Part shown: piece after piece, positions 17,919-35,387 of the stretch
How positions within the stretch are numbered: the first letter of the stretch is position 1
How the letters are laid out: every line of letters begins with the position of its first letter
Origin: Treponema sp.
GTDB lineage: Bacteria > Spirochaetota > Spirochaetia > Treponematales > Breznakiellaceae
Reading direction: 5' to 3'
Length of the DNA stretch: 42,494 nucleotides
NCBI GenBank assembly: GCA_031280125.1
Contig: JAITHE010000109.1
Span: 1-42,494 of the forward strand
Notes under the pieces: model-generated
The model's database searches: none
What the model was told of the DNA's origin: nothing
Seen by the model: only the letters and a program-made list of their open reading frames with translations
Translations under genes and position numbers: made by a program

Positions 17919-18563
17919 CTAAAACCCCAGGTCTTTCCCAACAATGATCACCTTGATCCTCCCCGCGGGCTTGCAGAGCCGGGTGATCACGATGTGGGAA
18001 CACACCGAATCCCCGCTCTTGCAATCGGCGCAGGCGCCGGTGATGGAACAGGGGGTTTTTAACGAAGGAAAACGCTGAACATTGAGGGGCGCCGCATGAT
18101 ACCGGGCCCGGGCCAGGGCATCCTCCGGGCTTTTGACCGCCTTGTTGATACCGGTAACGACGATCACCTGTTTGGGACCGTAACAGAGGGCGGCGACCCG
18201 GTTGCCGTTGCCGTCGATGTTGACAAGCTGGCCGTCTTCGCTGATCCCATTGGCGCCCATCAGAAAGGTACCACAAAGCAGGGCCTGCCGCCCCAGTTCA
18301 GCCTTTTCCTCCGAATTTGCCGCCGCATCCCGGTTGATCACGGCATAACCCCGCTGCACCGCCTCGCCGTACAGGTTCATGGCCTTGGCCGTCATGGATC
18401 CCCCCCAGGAAACAACATGATCCGGGGGGATAAGGCTGAACACTTTTTCCACCGCTTCGGGAATATCACCAAAATACCACGCATCAAAATGCCGGTCCTG
18501 AAGGGCCTTTACCAGGGTTGATCCCAGTTTGGTGTTTCTAAGATCATGAAAGGATCTGTCCAT
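17919..18563 (-). CDS. LUD-domain protein (LutC/YkgG-like)
   Basis: A cytosolic protein of 214 residues that matches the LUD (lactate utilisation, formerly DUF162) fold. Motifs are VVSWGGSMTAKAMNLY (about residues 50-65), GTFLMGANGISEDGQLVNIDGNGNR (about 98-122), QVIVVTGINKAVKSPEDALAR, and a Cys-rich C-terminal part (CSITGACADCKSGDSVCSH). LutC-type proteins act with iron-sulfur partners in lactate oxidation, but no lutA or lutB lies nearby, and many clostridial and spirochaetal LUD proteins occur alone. The cysteines might bind a metal. AAGGAGG precedes the ATG. The gene is divergent from the EamA transporter. Confidence 0.88.
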   Translation of the reverse strand: MDRSFHDLRNTKLGSTLVKALQDRHFDAWYFGDIPEAVEKVFSLIPPDHVVSWGGSMTAKAMNLYGEAVQRGYAVINRDAAANSEEKAELGRQALLCGTFLMGANGISEDGQLVNIDGNGNRVAALCYGPKQVIVVTGINKAVKSPEDALARARYHAAPLNVQRFPSLKTPCSITGACADCKSGDSVCSHIVITRLCKPAGRIKVIIVGKDLGF

Positions 18564-18612
18564 GAATCTCCTCCTTGATTACTGTTTACTGTACCCGCGG
18601 CGGGTTTTTTAC

Positions 18613-18618
18613 TACTAT
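18613..18618 (+). promoter_or_regulatory. -10 hexamer next to the EamA start
   Basis: TACTAT is followed by six bases and ATG 18625. At 17 bp upstream stands TGTACC (18590-18595), a partial -35. No ribosome binding site lies before the ATG. Confidence 0.45.
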
Positions 18619-18624
18619 TGTAGT

Positions 18625-19572
18625 ATGCATAAAACCGCTTTTCTCGCCAATATGCTCTGCGTCCTTTTCTGGGGATTTTCCTTTATTTCGATTAAAATCG
18701 CCGTTCTGGTCATTCCGCCCATGAGTCTGGGGGCCCTGCGGTTTGCCGTCGCGGTGTTGTTGCTGCTGGCATACCGGCTTTGCGCCCCCCGGCGGCCCGG
18801 GGAAAACCAGAAGGGCGGCGGACTTACACCGGGGGACCTTCCCTATTTAGCCGGATCGGGCCTTTCGGGGGTTACCTTTTACTTTTTCTTTGAAAACAAC
18901 GGCGTTGCCCTGGTAACCGCCTCGGAGGCTTCGATTATTATGGCGGCCATTCCGGTATTGACCATGAGCGCCGAATGGCTGACATCCAGGCTGTTTCCAG
19001 CACAGGCCCGGGGCGCCGGAGGACTTGTCCGCCTTGGCCGGCGGCACTGGCTGGGGGCTCTAGTCTCTGTGGCGGGGGTAATCCTGGTGGCCCGTGTTTC
19101 CTTTTCCCTTTCGGGAAACATAGCGGGTTATCTCTATATGGGTGGAGCCGCCCTCTGCTGGGTAGCCTACGGCTTTTTTACGCGGCCCCTCTTTGGCCGG
19201 GGACGTTCCCAAAGCTACATCGTCTTTTGGCAGAATGTTTTTGGGCTTCTGGGTTTCCTGCCCTTTGCCGTGCTGGAACACGCCCAATGGCAGATACCCT
19301 CCACCTCCGTGATGCTGCACGTGCTGTTCCTGGGACTGTGCTGTTCCGCCGCTGGCTACCTGCTTTATGCCCACGCCTTCAAGGCTCTGGGGGCGCCCGT
19401 CGCTTCGGTGTTCCTTAACCTGATTCCCGCAATAACCGCCGTGGCCGGTTTTTTCATCCTAGGCGACAGACTCAGCGCCCTGCAGTGGACCGGGGCGGCC
19501 CTGGTACTTACTGGCGTCTACCTGACGGTCCTCCCCGGCTTTTCCCAGGCACGTCTGCGCCCCGGCCCCTAA
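18625..19572 (+). CDS. EamA/DMT-superfamily transporter
   Basis: An inner-membrane exporter-like protein of 315 residues with ten predicted helices in two EamA repeats. It opens [20 protein letters not shown], typical of the family; the longer frame from 18562 would overlap the divergent gene. The first repeat ends near VLTMSAEWL and the second begins at the segment [18 protein letters not shown]. The substrate is unknown; amino acids or metabolites are usual. Its TAA stop and the TAG stop of ftsH overlap on opposite strands in the four bases CTAA. Confidence 0.9.
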
Positions 19573-27276: not shown

Positions 27277-29475
27277 CTATCCCACGGTGAAGCGGGACAC
27301 TTCCTTTACCAGGATGTCGATGCTTTCCTTGTTTTGGCCGCTGACCTCGTTGATCTGCTGTACCGCCGAATTGATCTGATCCGCGCTGCCGGCCATTTCG
27401 TTCATCCCGGTGGAAATCTCCTGGCTTGCCAGTTCAAGGTTTCTGCTTTCTTCGATTATTTCCTTTGCTCCCTCAAGCATTTCTCCGGAACCGTTTTTTA
27501 CCTGCCCAGTAATGTCGTTGAGCATGGCAATGGCATCAAGGATCTGCTTGCTTCCTTCCCCCTGCGCTTCCATGGCGTTCCGGATACTGCCTTCCTGATC
27601 GGCTACGATCTTTACCCCCCTGTCTATGGCTTCAAACTTATTAAGTACATTGCCTGTGGATTCGGTGATCTTGTCAATGGATCCCTTGATCTTTTTAAGT
27701 ACCTTGCTGATAGTTTTTGACTGTTTTCCGGAAGATTCGGCGAGCTTTCGTATTTCATCGGCCACTACGGCAAATCCCTTTCCCGCTTCCCCGGCGTGGG
27801 CCGCTTCGATGGCGGCGTTCATGGATAAAAGATTGGTCTGACTGGCGATATTTTCCATCACCGAGTTGATCTCCAGCAGGCCCTCGGATTCCCGGGCAAT
27901 TTCCTGAATATCGGAAGCCACTGCCTCAAGGCCCCGGCGGCCCACCTCGGAGGCCTCCGAAAGATCCGTTACACTCTCCGCGTTTTTTATCAATGTTTTG
28001 GTAACGGACTGAATATTGGCCAGCATCTGCTCAATGGCCGAAGAAGAGCGGGATACGCCGGAGCTTTGTTCCTCTATAAGGCTGTTAAGTTTGTTGATGT
28101 TTCCCGTGATCTGTTCCATGGTGGTGCTGGTTTCCGTTACCCCGGCGGATTGGTTTAACATTCTGCCCCGGATGCTCTGAATATTGGCGGTGATCTCGTT
28201 AACCGCCGCGGCGGTTTCTTTCATGTTGGCGGCCATCTGCCCGCCTATATTAAAGAGATTTGCCGTGTGCCGCTTTATTGTAATAATCAAGTGCTTGATC
28301 TTTTCCATGGTCTGATTAAAGGAACCGCTGATGTCTCCTATTTCATCACTGCTATGGATGTCCAGTTTCTGGGTCAGGTCTCCTTCGCCGGCCATACTGA
28401 AGCTTGTCATCATGGATTTGAGGGGCAGGGTGATTCTGCGGGCCATAAAGATCGCCGCCGCGGTGATCAAAAGAAGCATAACAACGATGATGGGAATGCT
28501 TATTTGCAGCATCTTGAGTACCGGTCCGTTGACGATGCCCATGGGGATGCCGAGCATCAGGGCCCAGGGAGTGCTGGTTGTTCCTATCTCGATGGGACTG
28601 AGAACAAATAAATAATTCTGGCCGTTGAGGCTGGATGTGTTGACAAAAGAAAACTGCCGGCCTTCCTTTACAGCGTTCAGCAGGTCCCCGCGGGACTGCT
28701 CGTTCAGTTCAAGTTCGGTTTCCATAAGGTATGCGCCGACCCGGTTACGGTCAAAATGGCCCGCCACTATTCCCTGGCTGCTAAAAACCGCTGCAATGGT
28801 TCCCTGGTAGGGCTGTATCCCGCTGACCCTGTTCTGTATGTTTTGAATACTGATGTCAAGCAGCGCCGCCCCCGGTATTTGATCATTTATGAAGATTGGT
28901 ACAGTAAGGGTCGTTATAAGTTCATCCTCTCCGTCAATGGCATAGTAATATGGCTCCATGATTGTTTCGTTTCCGCTGTCGCGGGCGGCAAGGTAAAAAT
29001 CTCCTTGTCCGGGAATATCGTAATTAAGAAGGGGCGATACGGCAATATTGTCTTCTTCTGTCCATGCCCAATAAGAGATGAATCTTCCGGTTCTATCCGA
29101 TCCGGGGGTGCCTGCATATTCCGCATCATTGCCGTCAAGGGCGTTGGGTTCCCAGCAGCTAGCCACGGCAGCTATGTCGGGGCTGGCTTTGAGAACGCCC
29201 CGCAATATCATGTCAAAGGTGGACCTCCGCCGCCAGTCTTCCAGTTCTACCGCTCCCTCCGCCATAATTTCGCTGATGGTCCGGATGGTGGACATATAGT
29301 TTTCGAACCATGTCTCAATTTCCGTAGCCTGTTTGTCGGCGATATCTGTTATTTCCTTGTTTACCAAGGCGTTAATTTCTTTTCTTGCCGTGTTTAATAC
29401 CACCGTAACAAGGGTTCCTATTCCAAGGAAAACGATGGACACAATCATAATAGTGAGTTTTTTACCCAGCTTCAT
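27277..29475 (-). CDS. Methyl-accepting chemotaxis protein with dCache sensor
   Basis: A transmembrane chemoreceptor of 732 residues. Start 29475 is chosen because GAGGAG precedes it and the signal anchor MKLGKKLTIMIVSIVFLGIG begins there. Order: first membrane helix (7-28), periplasmic double-Cache sensor (about 35-330, with the SYWAWTEEDNIAVSPLLNYD region and the YYYAIDGEDELITTLTVPIF region), second helix (about 340-365), HAMP, and a long cytoplasmic coiled coil with the tip IASQTNLLSMNAAIEAAHAGEAGKGFAVVADEIRKLAE (written here only as location: about residues 565-602). There is no C-terminal CheR-tethering pentapeptide. The ligand is probably a small organic acid or amino acid by domain type. 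Confidence 0.95.
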   Translation of the reverse strand: MKLGKKLTIMIVSIVFLGIGTLVTVVLNTARKEINALVNKEITDIADKQATEIETWFENYMSTIRTISEIMAEGAVELEDWRRRSTFDMILRGVLKASPDIAAVASCWEPNALDGNDAEYAGTPGSDRTGRFISYWAWTEEDNIAVSPLLNYDIPGQGDFYLAARDSGNETIMEPYYYAIDGEDELITTLTVPIFINDQIPGAALLDISIQNIQNRVSGIQPYQGTIAAVFSSQGIVAGHFDRNRVGAYLMETELELNEQSRGDLLNAVKEGRQFSFVNTSSLNGQNYLFVLSPIEIGTTSTPWALMLGIPMGIVNGPVLKMLQISIPIIVVMLLLITAAAIFMARRITLPLKSMMTSFSMAGEGDLTQKLDIHSSDEIGDISGSFNQTMEKIKHLIITIKRHTANLFNIGGQMAANMKETAAAVNEITANIQSIRGRMLNQSAGVTETSTTMEQITGNINKLNSLIEEQSSGVSRSSSAIEQMLANIQSVTKTLIKNAESVTDLSEASEVGRRGLEAVASDIQEIARESEGLLEINSVMENIASQTNLLSMNAAIEAAHAGEAGKGFAVVADEIRKLAESSGKQSKTISKVLKKIKGSIDKITESTGNVLNKFEAIDRGVKIVADQEGSIRNAMEAQGEGSKQILDAIAMLNDITGQVKNGSGEMLEGAKEIIEESRNLELASQEISTGMNEMAGSADQINSAVQQINEVSGQNKESIDILVKEVSRFTVG

Positions 29476-29506
29476 GATTAACTCCTCATTTTTACATCCC
29501 ATAAAA

Positions 29507-29535
29507 AATATAGTACAACCCGCCGCTAAAGTCAA
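29507..29535 (-). promoter_or_regulatory. Promoter of the chemoreceptor gene
   Basis: TTGACT (29535-29530), a 17-bp spacer and TATATT (29512-29507) on the minus strand. The leader is about 25-30 bases and contains the ribosome binding site. This is a normal sigma70 promoter, not sigma28. Confidence 0.65.
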
Positions 29536-29642: not shown

Positions 29643-30503
29643 CTACAGTTTCAGGAATATTTCGGCTTTTTCGATCTCGGAGTTCACCGTGGGTGCAATT
29701 TCTTCAAAAATTTCCGATCCCGTACCCAGCGCTTCCCGGATGGAAGGTCCCGGTTTTTCCGGATGCCTGTCGCCGGAAAAGCCTATGTCCATTTCGCAGG
29801 CAAAGCGGTTTGCCAGCATGATCGTATAAAGGATGTTTCTGTGGTCGCCGTCATAATCCAGGTGGCTGTGGTGGTATACAATAACATCCCCCACAGCCCC
29901 TTCAAGTTTCCAGGCTTTTACGATCTTTGCACCGGCGCCGCAGTGGTTGATTCCCAGATTTCTGTCTTCCGCCCTGACCAGGGAAAGCCGGTCCCGGTCG
30001 GAGACACTGACGGTAAGCAGATAATCCGCACCGGCTGCCGCATTAAGGGGGATCTTGCCTATGTCGTGCAGAAGTCCGGCGGTAAAATACTCTTCAAGCT
30101 GTTTGGCATCGATCCCCCGTTTTTTTGCGATGGTTTTGGCGGCCACCCCCACACACAGGGAATGCCGCCAGAAGCCTTCCATGTTGAGCCCTGCGGCGGC
30201 TCTGCCGGAAGCGAGGTTGCCCACCACCGCGGAAGAAAGGGCCAGGTTTTTTACGGTATTAATTCCCAGCATGATAATTGCCCGTACCAGGTTGGTAACT
30301 TGTTGGCCTAGTCCATAATAGGCAGAGTTGATCAATTTAAGTACCCGGCCTACCAGAACCGGATCCAAAGAAATCACGTGGTTTAAATCCGCGGGACTGG
30401 TCTGGGGATTGTTACAGACCTCCAGAACCTTTGCTACCGATGTGGGAAGGCTCGGCATATTCTTAATATATTCTTCAATTTTACGGTGCTGATCAGTGGA
30501 CAT
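29643..30503 (-). CDS. HDOD-domain signalling protein
   Basis: A cytosolic protein of 286 residues made almost wholly of one HDOD domain. It opens IEEYIKNMPSLPTSVAKVLE and continues LNHVISLDPVLVGRVLKLIN and ALSSAVVGNL, all typical. An HD-like GLLHDIGKIPL segment (about residues 165-175) keeps the His-Asp pair, which many HDOD proteins have lost. HDOD proteins act in signalling and gene regulation with unclear biochemistry. The start at 30503 overlaps the upstream TPR gene by 11 bases. It ends the LamG-TPR-HDOD operon, just after the chemoreceptor gene promoter. Confidence 0.93.
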   Translation of the reverse strand: MSTDQHRKIEEYIKNMPSLPTSVAKVLEVCNNPQTSPADLNHVISLDPVLVGRVLKLINSAYYGLGQQVTNLVRAIIMLGINTVKNLALSSAVVGNLASGRAAAGLNMEGFWRHSLCVGVAAKTIAKKRGIDAKQLEEYFTAGLLHDIGKIPLNAAAGADYLLTVSVSDRDRLSLVRAEDRNLGINHCGAGAKIVKAWKLEGAVGDVIVYHHSHLDYDGDHRNILYTIMLANRFACEMDIGFSGDRHPEKPGPSIREALGTGSEIFEEIAPTVNSEIEKAEIFLKL

Positions 30504-31575
30504 TATTCTGCCTCTTGCCGTTTATGGCGTTGATCTTTGATGCAACGTCCTGAAGCCTGCGCTTAAGGACGATAATCAGATTTTTATCCGGCATGGAACC
30601 GGAAAGATCTTCCAGGTATGACAAGGTACCGGCAATTTTTTCTCCCGGTACTTTTTCCGGCGGAGAAGAGACCAGAGAAATTTTCCGTGCCCTGATTTCA
30701 TTGAGCAGCCCTTTTTTACCTTCCAGGGTATTGATTACATACTCCATAACAAGCCTGGTTTCACTCCTCATGAACTCTTCCCGTTTTTTGGAGGGGAGCG
30801 AAGCGGCCAGAGTTTTGAGGTAGTTCATGAGCCCCAGAACCGCTTCCCGGTCATTCCGCCCCTTCCTGCCCTCTACGGATTCCGGGGTTTCTTCTCTGGT
30901 TTTTTTGATTCCCCCATCATACCGGTTTCCGGCCCACACACCGGCCAAATCCGGCCAGCTTTCCTGGCCCGGAGGGTCTCCGGGCTCCGGCTGTTTATCT
31001 TTCCCCTGTTCATCCCCGCTCTGGTACGCCCGGGTTATTTCAATATTTTTCTTCGTTTCTCCATTTTCGGGATCCATCCGGAGTGCCTGCTGAAAAACAG
31101 CCATGGCCCTGCCGTGAAGGCCCTGGCTGAGGTAGATTACCCCTAGGCCGTTACAGGCATGGACGGAACCGGGATCCAGTTCTACTGCCCTGGCGCAGGA
31201 CATGGCGGCAGCCTTGAGGCTGCCCATCCGCGCCTGGATAGTCCCAGTATTATAATACAATTCCGCCCTGGTGGGATCAATTTCAACGGCCTCCGCCAGA
31301 GCATCCAGGGCGTCCTGATACTTTTCCTGCCGCCGGTAAACAACCGCCAAGTTGTTTAGGGCTTCCGTATCCCGGGGGTTCTTCGCCAGAAGACTGCGGA
31401 ATTCATCCGCCGCTTCACCAGGTTTTCCCGCCTCCGCCAGGGTAATTCCCAAAAGAAGACGCGCCTCCCTGTCATCCTGATGTTTGGCCAGGTACTGCCC
31501 AAGGAGTTCCTCCGCTTCCGCATGATTTCCTGCCCGGCGGGGGTTCCCGGTGCGGCCAAGGATGGTTACATTCAT
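30493..31575 (-). CDS. TPR-repeat protein
   Basis: A protein of 360 residues without a signal peptide. Residues about 15-185 are five or so tetratricopeptide repeats (for example TEALNNLAVVYRRQEKYQDA and AELYYNTGTIQARMGSLKAA), a scaffold for protein binding. A charged, disordered linker (about 185-235) follows. The C-terminal part (about 236-355) is helical with no family I recognise. The start ATG at 31575 shares ATGA with the stop of the upstream LamG gene, and its own stop lies inside the HDOD gene, so translation is tightly coupled. Confidence 0.88.
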   Translation of the reverse strand: MNVTILGRTGNPRRAGNHAEAEELLGQYLAKHQDDREARLLLGITLAEAGKPGEAADEFRSLLAKNPRDTEALNNLAVVYRRQEKYQDALDALAEAVEIDPTRAELYYNTGTIQARMGSLKAAAMSCARAVELDPGSVHACNGLGVIYLSQGLHGRAMAVFQQALRMDPENGETKKNIEITRAYQSGDEQGKDKQPEPGDPPGQESWPDLAGVWAGNRYDGGIKKTREETPESVEGRKGRNDREAVLGLMNYLKTLAASLPSKKREEFMRSETRLVMEYVINTLEGKKGLLNEIRARKISLVSSPPEKVPGEKIAGTLSYLEDLSGSMPDKNLIIVLKRRLQDVASKINAINGKRQNNVH

Positions 31576-33365
31576 CGGCCTGCCCCCGGACCGGGAGGAG
31601 GAGCCCGCAGGGGCCGGGCACTGACCTCCCGGGCAAATTGTCCGGCATGGAAGCCCGGCACACTGTTCCCGCCAGGACGCGGCGGAGCCGCCGGGGACGC
31701 TCCATCATAGGCAGCCACCGTAAAAAAGTACAGCGTTCCGTTCCGCAGGCCCTCGATCCGCAGGGAAGTCCGGTTCCCCGCGTCAATGGGGGAATCCCCC
31801 GCCGCAGCTCCCTGGCCATAGTAAACGCCGCTGGAAGTTCCGTAGTATACCAAATAACCTTGGACATCTTCGTCGGGGCTCCCCCGCCAGGACAGGTCCA
31901 CCGCTCCGTCCATGGCTTGAGCAATCACCAAAGAAGGGGGATAGGGGGGATCGTTACTTTCGTAGATGATCCTGAGTTCCTCCAGATAAGGGCTGGTTTC
32001 ACAGTCTCCACTGGGGTAGAATGAAACCGCAAGCTGGATATACCGTCCCCAAAGAGACGGCAGGGTTTCGCCGGGGACGATGGGGATCCATGGGCTTTGG
32101 CCGAACCGGTAGGGCTCTTCTCCGGTACGGATAAAAAACTGCAACGCCGAATCATCGGGAAAGCGGAAACTGCCCCGGCCTGTATAGGTATTTTTTACCG
32201 CCATATACCGGGCCCCGGCCTGGAGGACAAAACTTAGCCGCCCGCCGGAAGCCTCTACCCTGATCACCCGTGAACCCGCTTCGCCCAGATCCAGGGTCCG
32301 GGTTTCAATGCGTCCGCCGCTGCGGGGAAATTTGGTCAGTTCCGGCAGTTCCAGGGCAGTCCGGGATGCCGGTTCCAGGGCGGTCCGGCCCGGCGCGTTG
32401 ATCACCCGGTTGTAAATCCGGAATTCATCTATCATCCCGGAAAAACGGCTCCCCAGAATAAAATAACCGTCCCGGTTTGTCCGGGGAGTGTACACGTCCC
32501 CCCCCTCTCCACCGCTGGAAGTAGCGTGGGCCGTACTTTCAATTCTGCCGTTGATAAGATATTCCAGCAGGCCAGAATCGGCGTTGTACCGGATCAGGTG
32601 GTGGCTCCAAGTCCGGGGGGTTAAAACGCTTCTGCTTTCCAGGGTGATGCTGAGCCGTCCCGGGAGAAAATTTCCCCGCCGGGACCCGGTTTCTTCCTGA
32701 GGGGGACTGAAAAATTCTTGAAAGGTCCAGCGGATCCGGTTTTTCAAGGCTTCGCAGAGGATTCGCTGGTTTTCCACCGCCGACCAGCCTAGAATTTTTT
32801 CGCCGTTTTCCATATTATTGGGATACAGCCAAAATTCCAGGCTAAAATCCCGGATATTCCGTCCCGGGGCAAAGAGGGCGCCCGGCCCCGGCCTGAGCGT
32901 TAACGGTTCGCTTGCCCGGTCCCGCAGCCCGGAAAAAAGGGCCGCTCCCCGGCCGTATCTGGCCCATCGCTCGTTGACGCTCTCCACCGGTCCGGAAATA
33001 CCCGTCCTGTAATGACCTTGACGATCCTCAAAACGATCCGGTGAGGATTCGTCAAAACCCAGTTCCAGGTCCAGGGCAGATTCGGGCACGGAAAAATTTC
33101 TGAAGGCCCCATAAAGGGCCGTGATATCCTGACCGGCGTTCCGGCGTTCCGCGGCCCCCGCCGAAAAGGAACCGGTCCAGGCGGAAGACAGGGCCAGCAC
33201 CCTCCGGGGCCTTACGGCAGACAGTTCTTCTACCTGGCTGCGCGCTTCCACCGCCTGCCACCCGGCGGAAGCGCCGAGGATCAAGGTTTTTTCCGCCGCC
33301 TGCAGACCGGGACTGACGCAGCACAGAAAAAAACAGTATAATATAATCGGTGCGGTATTTTTCAT
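31572..33365 (-). CDS. Exported LamG- and fibronectin-type III protein
   Basis: A 597-residue exported protein with signal peptide MKNTAPIILYCFFLCCVSPG and a cleavage region near LQAAEK. The middle (about residues 130-325) is a LamG/concanavalin-like jelly roll, with FSLEFWLYPNNMENGEKILGW and GMIDEFRIYNRVI, the latter typical of LamG ends. A beta domain follows (about 340-470), then one fibronectin III domain (about 475-560) with AVDLSWRGSPDEDVQGYLVYY. The C-terminus is Pro/Gly/Ala-rich. Such architecture suits carbohydrate or surface binding; the ligand is unknown. No ribosome binding site is seen; TATAAT lies 12 bases before the ATG. It heads a three-gene operon. Confidence 0.85.
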   Translation of the reverse strand: MKNTAPIILYCFFLCCVSPGLQAAEKTLILGASAGWQAVEARSQVEELSAVRPRRVLALSSAWTGSFSAGAAERRNAGQDITALYGAFRNFSVPESALDLELGFDESSPDRFEDRQGHYRTGISGPVESVNERWARYGRGAALFSGLRDRASEPLTLRPGPGALFAPGRNIRDFSLEFWLYPNNMENGEKILGWSAVENQRILCEALKNRIRWTFQEFFSPPQEETGSRRGNFLPGRLSITLESRSVLTPRTWSHHLIRYNADSGLLEYLINGRIESTAHATSSGGEGGDVYTPRTNRDGYFILGSRFSGMIDEFRIYNRVINAPGRTALEPASRTALELPELTKFPRSGGRIETRTLDLGEAGSRVIRVEASGGRLSFVLQAGARYMAVKNTYTGRGSFRFPDDSALQFFIRTGEEPYRFGQSPWIPIVPGETLPSLWGRYIQLAVSFYPSGDCETSPYLEELRIIYESNDPPYPPSLVIAQAMDGAVDLSWRGSPDEDVQGYLVYYGTSSGVYYGQGAAAGDSPIDAGNRTSLRIEGLRNGTLYFFTVAAYDGASPAAPPRPGGNSVPGFHAGQFAREVSARPLRAPPPGPGAGR

Positions 33366-33377
33366 GGTACTTCATTA

Positions 33378-33383
33378 ATTATA
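33378..33383 (-). promoter_or_regulatory. -10 box TATAAT of the LamG operon
   Basis: A perfect TATAAT on the minus strand, 12 bases before ATG 33365, predicting a leader of only about five bases. It shares a 33-bp space with the divergent uvrC start. Confidence 0.5.
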
Positions 33384-33387
33384 TCGG

Positions 33388-33393
33388 TAATTT
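33388..33393 (+). promoter_or_regulatory. -10-like hexamer next to the uvrC start
   Basis: TAATTT is followed by five bases and ATG 33399. It overlaps the promoter region of the divergent operon. No ribosome binding site is present. Confidence 0.35.
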
Positions 33394-33398
33394 GTTAT

Positions 33399-35387
33399 AT
33401 GGACCTTAAAAAGATTGCCAGGGAAGCTCCCCGGGAAGCGGGGGTCTATATCATGAAAGATGCCGAAGGCCGGATCATCTATGTGGGCAAGGCCAGGGTA
33501 CTCAGGAACAGGCTGGTCTCCTACTTTTCCGGTGAAAAGGACATTAAAACCAGGACTCTCCTTCGCCACGCCGCCTTGATCGAAATGATCATAGTCAAGG
33601 ATGAATATGAAGCACTGCTGCTGGAAAATACCCTGATCAAACAGCACAGTCCCCGGTACAATATCAACCTCAAGGACGGCAAGACCTACCCGGTGATACG
33701 GCTTACCGCAGGGCCCTTCCCCCGGGTTTTCAGGACCCGGCATATCATTGACGACGGATCTTCCTACTTTGGTCCCTTCCCCAATGTAGGGGCCATGGAC
33801 GGCATGCTGGATGTGATAGACCGGGTTTTTTCCCTGCGGAAATGCCGGATCCTGCAAAAACGCCGGGATCCCTGCATGTACTACCACATTGGCCGCTGCG
33901 CCGCCCCCTGCTGCAAAAGGATCGGCGAGGCGGATTACGCCCTTCAGGTAGACAGGGTGCGGCGGCTCCTTTCAGGCAATACGAAAAGACTGGCCGATGA
34001 GCTTACCGGAGAAATGCGAAAGGAAGCGGCCGCTCTGCGTTTTGAGCGGGCCGCCCAGCTCCGGAACGCCGTTAAAACCATCGAAACCCTAAACGAAACC
34101 AGCGCTGTAATAGATTTTGATCCCCAGGGCCGGGACTACATAGCCTGGGCCGCCGAAGGGGTTCTGGCCACTTTTTCGGTTTTTTCCATGCGGGGGGGCA
34201 AGCTTACGGGGCGGGAACTGTACCGGACCAGAAGCGCCGCCACCGAAGGTGAATCCATGATTACTTTTATTGCCGGCTACTACAACGGTGAGCGGCTTCC
34301 TCCGGGACAGATATACGTTGCTCCCGTTCCGGCAACTTCCGGGGCGGGTAGTCCCGAAGCGGAGACCGGAGAGCCTGCAAAATCCCTTCCTTTTGATTCC
34401 CGGCCCCTGGCGAAATGGTTCCGGGATAAGCTGCATTTGGAGCCGGAACTACTGACACCCAGCGACAGCCACCACCAGGCGGTAATGGCCATGGCCGGAC
34501 AAAACGCCCGGGAGGATCTCCGCCGGAGGCTCAGGGAACGGGGAGCCGGTCCGGCCCTGGACGAACTAAAAAATGTGCTGGGCCTTAAAAACCGGCCTGA
34601 ACGAATCGAAGGTTTCGACATTGCCCAGCTTGACGGCAAACATCCGGTGGCATCCCTTATCAGTTTTGTCAACGGTGTTCCGGACAAAAAAAATTACCGC
34701 CGTTTCAAGCTCCGTACCGTGGCGGGGATTGTGGACGATTTTAGAGCCATGCGGGAGGCGGTGGAGCGCCGCTACCGCCGGCTCCTCCGGGAAAACCGGG
34801 AACTGCCGGACCTGATCCTTGTTGATGGAGGCATAGGGCAGGTAAACGCCGCCCGGGGGGTACTGGACGCATTGGGGGTTGACTGTGATGTGGCGGGACT
34901 GGCCAAGCGGGAAGAAGAAATCTGGCTTCCCAAAGCCCGAACCCCCCTGCGGCTTTCCCGGCAGTCCGAAGCCTTGCGGGTACTTCAATTTATCAGGGAC
35001 GAAGCCCACCGTTTCGCCACAGGTTTAAACCAGATCCTCCGTTCCGGGGATCTAAAACTGGAAACGCTGGAATCGGTGGAGGGGATTGGTCCCAAACGGG
35101 CGGCGGTCCTGATCCGGCGCTACCAAAGTATCGGGAGGGTAGCTTCCGCGGAAGCGGAAGAAATTGCTCAGATCTGCGGCTGTTCTGCGGCGGCGGCCCG
35201 GGCTGTCAGGGCCGCCGCCGGGCTTGCCCTCCTGGACAGAAAATCCAGGGGACTCCGCCGTCCCTCCGGCGTTTCCGCTCTGGCGGCGGCCGCCCTTGCT
35301 CCGGATCCCGCCGATGGCTGTCAGGACAGTTCCGCGGCTGCCTGCGGCACCGGGATGGCCGCCGAAGCGGCAAAAGAATACGGCTAG
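33399..35387 (+). CDS. uvrC: Excinuclease ABC subunit C
   Basis: The dual-incision nuclease of nucleotide excision repair, 662 residues. Order: GIY-YIG nuclease (GVYIMKDAEGRIIYVGKA, residues 15-32) that makes the 3' cut, a Cys-bearing segment (CRILQKRRDPCMYYHIGRC), a UVR motif that contacts UvrB (about 198-230), the RNase H-like 5' nuclease with FDIAQLDGKHPVAS and ILVDGGIGQVNAA, and a helix-hairpin-helix pair (VEGIGPKRAAVLIRRYQSIG). After it stands an unusual Ala- and Pro-rich tail of about 60 residues (from about 605) with no known role. No ribosome binding site is seen. Confidence 0.97.
   Translation: MDLKKIAREAPREAGVYIMKDAEGRIIYVGKARVLRNRLVSYFSGEKDIKTRTLLRHAALIEMIIVKDEYEALLLENTLIKQHSPRYNINLKDGKTYPVIRLTAGPFPRVFRTRHIIDDGSSYFGPFPNVGAMDGMLDVIDRVFSLRKCRILQKRRDPCMYYHIGRCAAPCCKRIGEADYALQVDRVRRLLSGNTKRLADELTGEMRKEAAALRFERAAQLRNAVKTIETLNETSAVIDFDPQGRDYIAWAAEGVLATFSVFSMRGGKLTGRELYRTRSAATEGESMITFIAGYYNGERLPPGQIYVAPVPATSGAGSPEAETGEPAKSLPFDSRPLAKWFRDKLHLEPELLTPSDSHHQAVMAMAGQNAREDLRRRLRERGAGPALDELKNVLGLKNRPERIEGFDIAQLDGKHPVASLISFVNGVPDKKNYRRFKLRTVAGIVDDFRAMREAVERRYRRLLRENRELPDLILVDGGIGQVNAARGVLDALGVDCDVAGLAKREEEIWLPKARTPLRLSRQSEALRVLQFIRDEAHRFATGLNQILRSGDLKLETLESVEGIGPKRAAVLIRRYQSIGRVASAEAEEIAQICGCSAAAARAVRAAAGLALLDRKSRGLRRPSGVSALAAAALAPDPADGCQDSSAAACGTGMAAEAAKEYG

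Follow-up and report, generated by a model that had tools for sequence, protein, structure and literature searches.

How are two genes transcribed when they point away from each other from start codons only 33 bases apart, and to what extent do they share promoter DNA? This question is raised by uvrC and a LamG gene in the 42,494-nucleotide stretch of Treponema sp. DNA analysed here (the window), which belongs to a genome of 2.43 Mb in 172 contigs, 77% complete. As a preliminary description of this DNA had said, the two start codons were found to be divergent and separated by 33 bases, with LamG starting at 33365 (minus strand) and uvrC at 33399 (plus strand), and the gene names that it gave hold, as indicated by domain matches (Laminin_G_3 and fn3, TPR, HDOD and MCP on the minus strand, and UvrC on the plus strand). 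Inspection by eye revealed no Shine-Dalgarno-like sequence before uvrC and no good one before LamG, in agreement with its statement that both starts lack a ribosome binding site. The gene run that it had called a surface-protein operon is better described as one that begins with a secreted LamG/fn3 protein and ends with a chemotaxis-receptor gene; a search of solved structures with LamG gave matches to fn3 only. The window also contains a tmRNA gene (Rfam RF00023) at positions 229-574 on the plus strand. The features of the locus are given in Table 1.

Table 1. Genes and observed or predicted promoter elements at the uvrC-LamG locus (positions in the window).
Feature	Positions	Strand	Remarks
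uvrC (excinuclease ABC subunit C)	33399-35387	+	Pfam UvrC and GIY-YIG domains; TIGR00194 above its cut-off
LamG gene	31572-33365	-	hydrophobic N terminus, then Laminin_G_3 and fn3 domains
TPR gene	30493-31575	-	overlaps the LamG stop
HDOD-domain gene	29643-30503	-	overlaps the TPR gene
Methyl-accepting chemotaxis protein (MCP) gene	27277-29535	-	last of the LamG run; 107 bases from the HDOD gene
Gap between uvrC and LamG start codons	33366-33398		33 bases
Candidate uvrC -35, CTGACG	33313-33318	+	in LamG codons 16-18
Candidate uvrC -10, TATAAT	33337-33342	+	in LamG codons 8-10
Putative sigma-28 type -10 of LamG, ACCGATAT	33381-33388	-	core conserved in linked loci; matches flgM promoters
Putative weak sigma-28 -35 of LamG, TTAAGG	33401-33409	-	inside uvrC codons 1-4, one base out of usual spacing
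TATAAT proposed earlier	33378-33383	-	present, not conserved
TAATTT proposed earlier	33388-33393	+	present, not conserved; four bases from the minus-strand TATAAT
Predicted overlap of the two 5′ ends	33349-33374		predicted starts ~33349 (plus) and ~33374 (minus), from the -10-to-start spacing

The conservation of this arrangement was evaluated in 78 distinct spirochaete uvrC loci, which remained of 97 after removal of 7 non-spirochaete loci (L090, L092-L097) and 12 duplicates. It was found that 62 had a divergent LamG gene within 700 bases (linked loci), 14 did not (unlinked loci), and 2 were too short. The gap between the start codons in 60 linked relatives had a median of 33 bases and was 25-40 bases in 35 of them. 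More widely, LamG relatives were present in 123 of 146 genomes of the order, and in other families uvrC was located upstream of LamG in 12 of the 17 stretches examined, the other 5 being without uvrC; in one of the stretches (L293, family f3) a LamG start read by eye would put the two start codons at a distance of only about 3 bases. In 385 kb of the genome of the window, 6 of 38 divergent pairs called with a simple purpose-made gene caller, uvrC-LamG included, had gaps of 40 bases or less. The 33-base gap is by itself not unusual; the conservation of the gap is. In spirochaetes related to Treponema, uvrC and the predicted secreted-protein gene are divergent and often about 33 bases apart. All of the evidence presented here is a comparison of related, non-independent genomes, and the statistics overstate the case.

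The preliminary description had assigned the shared promoter DNA to two hexamers in the gap, TATAAT on the minus strand and TAATTT on the plus strand. Both are present at the distance that it implied, but as promoters they are poorly conserved: of 61 aligned linked loci, only that of the window has the minus-strand TATAAT at this place, tried as the LamG -10, and 7, all close relatives, have TAATTT, tried as the uvrC -10. These two hexamers of the gap are probably not the promoters. The conserved piece between them is TATCGG, which was exact in 58 of the 61 loci and had one change in 3. Within 150 bases upstream of uvrC, all 62 linked loci have this hexamer, 59 as TATCGG and 3 as the one-base variants TGTCGG or CATCGG; the additional locus, L012, is absent from the 61 aligned and has TATCGG 121 bases upstream of the match start. 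Near unlinked uvrC genes it was found in 2 of 14 loci, both on contigs that end too soon to show LamG. TATCGG was rejected as an element of uvrC, being absent from 12 of the 14 unlinked uvrC loci, whereas CCGATA or CCGAAA was kept upstream by 8 of 10 unlinked LamG copies. Speaking against an assignment to LamG only, 36 of the 61 loci have TATCGG beginning exactly 17 bases upstream of the uvrC start, a fixed distance that we ascribe, without proof, to relatedness and the fixed place of both genes. In the other families, 8 of the 12 uvrC-bearing stretches (all of families f2, f4 and f5) had TATCG no more than about 20 bases from the uvrC start, and the 4 that had none there were all of family f3.

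Read on the opposite strand, TATCGG is CCGATA, the core of sigma-28 promoters, and FliA is encoded in the genome of the window. The sigma-28 -10 type GCCGATAA was found on the LamG side. Linked loci and flgM promoters both have a T[GA]CCGATA-type core; the flgM promoters, when aligned, read TAAACTAT-N12-TGCCGATAAT (one clear site in 21 of 30 loci). Comparison of the loci showed that this putative sigma-28 core is conserved and goes with LamG. The -35 of the TAAA type is weak where LamG is linked to uvrC and overlaps the uvrC start codons, and it is better in 7 of the 10 unlinked copies, in which the best -35-like block was at exactly 12 bases. The mean score of the LamG -35 beside uvrC was -5.0, relative to -9.0 at control positions and 5.6 to 14.1 for flgM.

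A stringent sigma-28 pattern gave 3 matches in the genome (fliS, fliD and flgM) and none in the control, and a looser pattern was not enriched in the genome (24 matches versus 22 in the control). The full pattern was close upstream in only 5 of 30 fliS loci of the family, and no clear sigma-28 site was seen upstream of flaB genes in the pieces inspected. The bare CCGATA hexamer occurs 13 times in the window, where 19 would be expected, and is thus not enriched; the sigma-28 case therefore rests on conservation and place. In T. denticola, the mapped start of flaB2 lies behind CCGATAA and TTAA (PMC9481697); LamG resembles this sigma-28 promoter in its CCGATAA-type -10, the TTAA upstream and the presence of FliA and FlgM, and differs from it in that the -10 is ACCGATAT and the -35 is degenerate and located inside another gene. 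We infer that LamG carries a sigma-28 (FliA) type promoter in the gap, and the secreted LamG/fn3 protein probably belongs to the motility regulon.

A consensus scan for the uvrC promoter gave CTGACG-N18-TATAAT on the plus strand (33313-33342), with 10 of 12 matches, within the signal-peptide codons of LamG. A -10 was found at the matching place in 12 of 13 near relatives (as TACAAT, TATACT, TACACT or TAGAAT), with an upstream block of CTGAC, CTGGC or ATGAC. The candidate -35 CTGACG has 4 of 6 matches to TTGACA, compared with 2 of 6 for the CTACC that stands upstream in most of the family and is a poor sigma-70 -35. In the linked LamG genes, of which 60 were counted (L045 is without a called LamG start, and L077 and L089, with doubtful called starts, were scored as lacking the embedded element), TANA[AC]T was present in the first 90 bases of 42, and each of the next four 90-base windows had it in 0 to 3 of the genes. 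Shuffling of synonymous codons gave 8.8 on average and a maximum of 21 in 1000 draws, relative to the 42 observed, and the -10 together with a block 18 bases upstream was found in 30 of 60 genes, relative to 0.83 and a maximum of 5 for the shuffle. The embedded -10 is missing from 18 of the 60.

This signal could be followed at the level of codons. A Tyr in the hydrophobic N terminus of 52 of the 60 linked LamG proteins has a codon that supplies the TA of the -10, and the last T of the -10 corresponds to a wobble A in the codon two before this Tyr, which was found in 48 of 52 genes versus 454 of 1740 in the background and was kept through at least six amino acids. When the genes were aligned on the Tyr, Gly at +7 was GGT in 31 of 31 and Ser at +8 was AGY in 39 of 39, the background for GGT being 242 of 2160 Gly codons in LamG bodies. 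These counts show that the putative embedded element is conserved at synonymous sites of linked LamG genes, and the sigma-70-like CTGACG-N18-TATAAT within the LamG coding region is the best candidate for the uvrC promoter. Folding of the predicted uvrC leader revealed nothing unusual (z 0.34).

It was also observed that a block near ACTACCGGAAAC on the plus strand, 18 bases before the -10, is kept at synonymous sites in most linked LamG genes, in an alignment in which the Tyr of L003, L008, L064 and L069 differs from that of the wobble count and the columns are slightly off. As a general promoter class, CTACC with TATACT gave about the same number of matches as a reversed control in 7 genomes. 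The ACTACCGGAAAC-like block does not make a good -35 and is not a motif of common occurrence; it is perhaps an operator.

Unlinked LamG genes were used for comparison (n = 10; the starts of L191 and L193 are doubtful, and L185-L188 represent a single lineage). The -10 with its block was found in 0 of 10, whichever nearest start codon was used (Fisher p 0.004, or 0.03 when counted as 6 lineages), and the Tyr with the wobble A in 0 of 8 with readable ATG starts, or TTG for L180 (p 1.7e-5). When later start codons were used for L185-L188, such a base went with another Tyr, located past the hydrophobic core, and with no -10. The -10 alone, in another register, was present in 3 of 10 (p 0.03), or in 4 of 10 with the TTG start of L180 (p 0.08). 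The -10 alone separates linked from unlinked LamG genes weakly, and the whole element does so better.

The explanation that we favor, and regard as probable with some reserve, is that of conserved, interlocked promoters, with LamG transcribed from a FliA promoter and uvrC from a sigma-70-like promoter in LamG codons. In this model, the LamG gene run would start at a FliA (sigma-28) promoter that has the -10 ACCGATAT in the 33-base gap and a weak -35 squeezed into the uvrC start codons, and uvrC would be transcribed from a housekeeping promoter of the sigma-70-like kind that lies within the codons for the LamG signal peptide, its messenger beginning with some 50 bases that contain no ribosome site. 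Placed by the usual spacing between a -10 and the start, the predicted starts would face each other and the 5′ ends would have about 26 bases in common. A strongly firing promoter would hinder the opposite one, and open complexes would crowd each other, as judged from the size of the polymerase footprint. Which sigma factor reads which promoter, where the transcripts start and whether there is interference are predictions of this model.

The claim of shared promoter DNA is thus supported by the sigma-28 type -10 and the putative embedded sigma-70-like promoter and not by the hexamers that had been named. The preliminary description had considered that start sites inside the neighbouring genes, well apart from each other, would speak against it; the uvrC start is predicted to lie inside the neighbouring LamG gene, yet only about 25 bases from the LamG start. 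That two polymerases are unable to occupy the shared DNA at once is plausible, as is promoter interference between LamG and uvrC. The mutual exclusion of expression that had been proposed is possible if it is taken as repression of uvrC under active FliA, not as a switch.

Could the same layout exist without any regulatory effect? The promoters may be as proposed and their overlap a matter of genome economy, a reading that shares the layout of the interlocked-promoter model, differs only in the effect and has, in our estimate, an even chance of being correct. It is consistent with the short divergent gaps that are common in this genome (see above), and with five E. coli bidirectional promoters whose two directions were too weakly active at the basal level to compete, and did so once one of them had been strongly activated (PMC12825309). 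That several families of the order retain both the linkage and the gap speaks against mere economy and is itself no test of regulation. At the other extreme, a conserved lock that couples nucleotide excision repair to the FliA motility regulon in this spirochaete order, in which FliA activity damps uvrC and the uvrC promoter fixes the Tyr and Gly-Ser, with their near-invariant wobble bases, of the signal peptide of a FliA-dependent secreted protein, is in our view improbable. If the interlocked-promoter model is right, a housekeeping promoter would constrain the amino-acid sequence of a secreted protein encoded on the opposite strand, and in a large group of spirochaetes there would be a physical link between a repair gene and the motility sigma factor.

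Other readings concern the elements themselves. The conserved signal-peptide DNA might serve as the operator of a regulator, as a signal in the LamG messenger or as the signal peptide itself. The CTACC block, as a poor -35 that forms no general class, would fit such a role, and the Tyr and Gly-Ser could matter to the peptide; however, the conservation sits at wobble bases through several amino acids and is not reproduced by the codon-shuffle null, the element with its block is absent from all 10 unlinked LamG genes, and the block and the -10, which is of the TATACT type used in this genome, are spaced as in a promoter. We consider this role unlikely. Back-to-back sigma-70 promoters in the gap (TATAAT minus, TAATTT plus) that give short or leaderless transcripts, as in a classical bidirectional promoter, are quite unlikely in view of the poor conservation of both hexamers described above and the lack of a good -35 at 16-18 bases for TAATTT (by eye), although both are found in the sequence and TATACT stands directly before the ATG in some uvrC genes without LamG (L022, L086). 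Such promoters are further favored by genes that have TANNNT at positions -13 to -11, a class that in 385 kb of the genome of the window (the window and L129-L147) comprised 40 of 267 ATG genes (39 without a Shine-Dalgarno sequence) versus 14.9 expected; in 320 kb of one relative the class was not enriched (20 of 212 versus 18.7 expected). This class suggests that many transcripts in the genome may be leaderless.

Compared with known systems, the uvrC-LamG locus resembles the E. coli bidirectional promoters of Warman, Grainger and colleagues (PMC12825309) in having divergent genes with overlapping promoter DNA. One polymerase blocks the other at those promoters, which use sigma-70 and one pseudo-symmetrical -10 region, the distance between the starts being commonly 18 bases and in other cases 10 or 23. 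At uvrC-LamG, in contrast, there would be two promoter types, predicted starts that face each other and one promoter in coding DNA; no shared pseudo-symmetrical -10 was found there, the conserved elements being separate. No report of an interlocked uvrC/LamG arrangement was found in the open-access literature searched. Excludons are overlapping divergent transcripts that regulate each other. Like them, uvrC-LamG has divergent genes with overlapping 5′ ends, here predicted, and unlike them its predicted overlap is only about 26 bases. With its linked and unlinked lineages, the pair would be a natural case for studying sigma-factor competition on a short piece of DNA.

Several other observations were made on start regions and divergent pairs. 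Members of the TANNNT class without a Shine-Dalgarno sequence often read GGTATACT. In the window, a LUD-domain gene (17919-18563, minus strand) and a transporter-like gene (18562-19572, plus strand) seemingly start on one shared CATG (18561-18564), in which case each promoter would need to lie in the other gene. Two further divergent pairs of the same genome, 25 and 29 bases apart (L147:2162-2188 and L134:3411-3441), have in common a palindromic AGTATACT, which resembles a classical bidirectional -10. In L158:6666-9059 (G027), recO and a radical-SAM gene are divergent with starts 63 bases apart, and the second start follows CCGATATAATAAGTACC, in which it closely resembles the start of LamG in the window.
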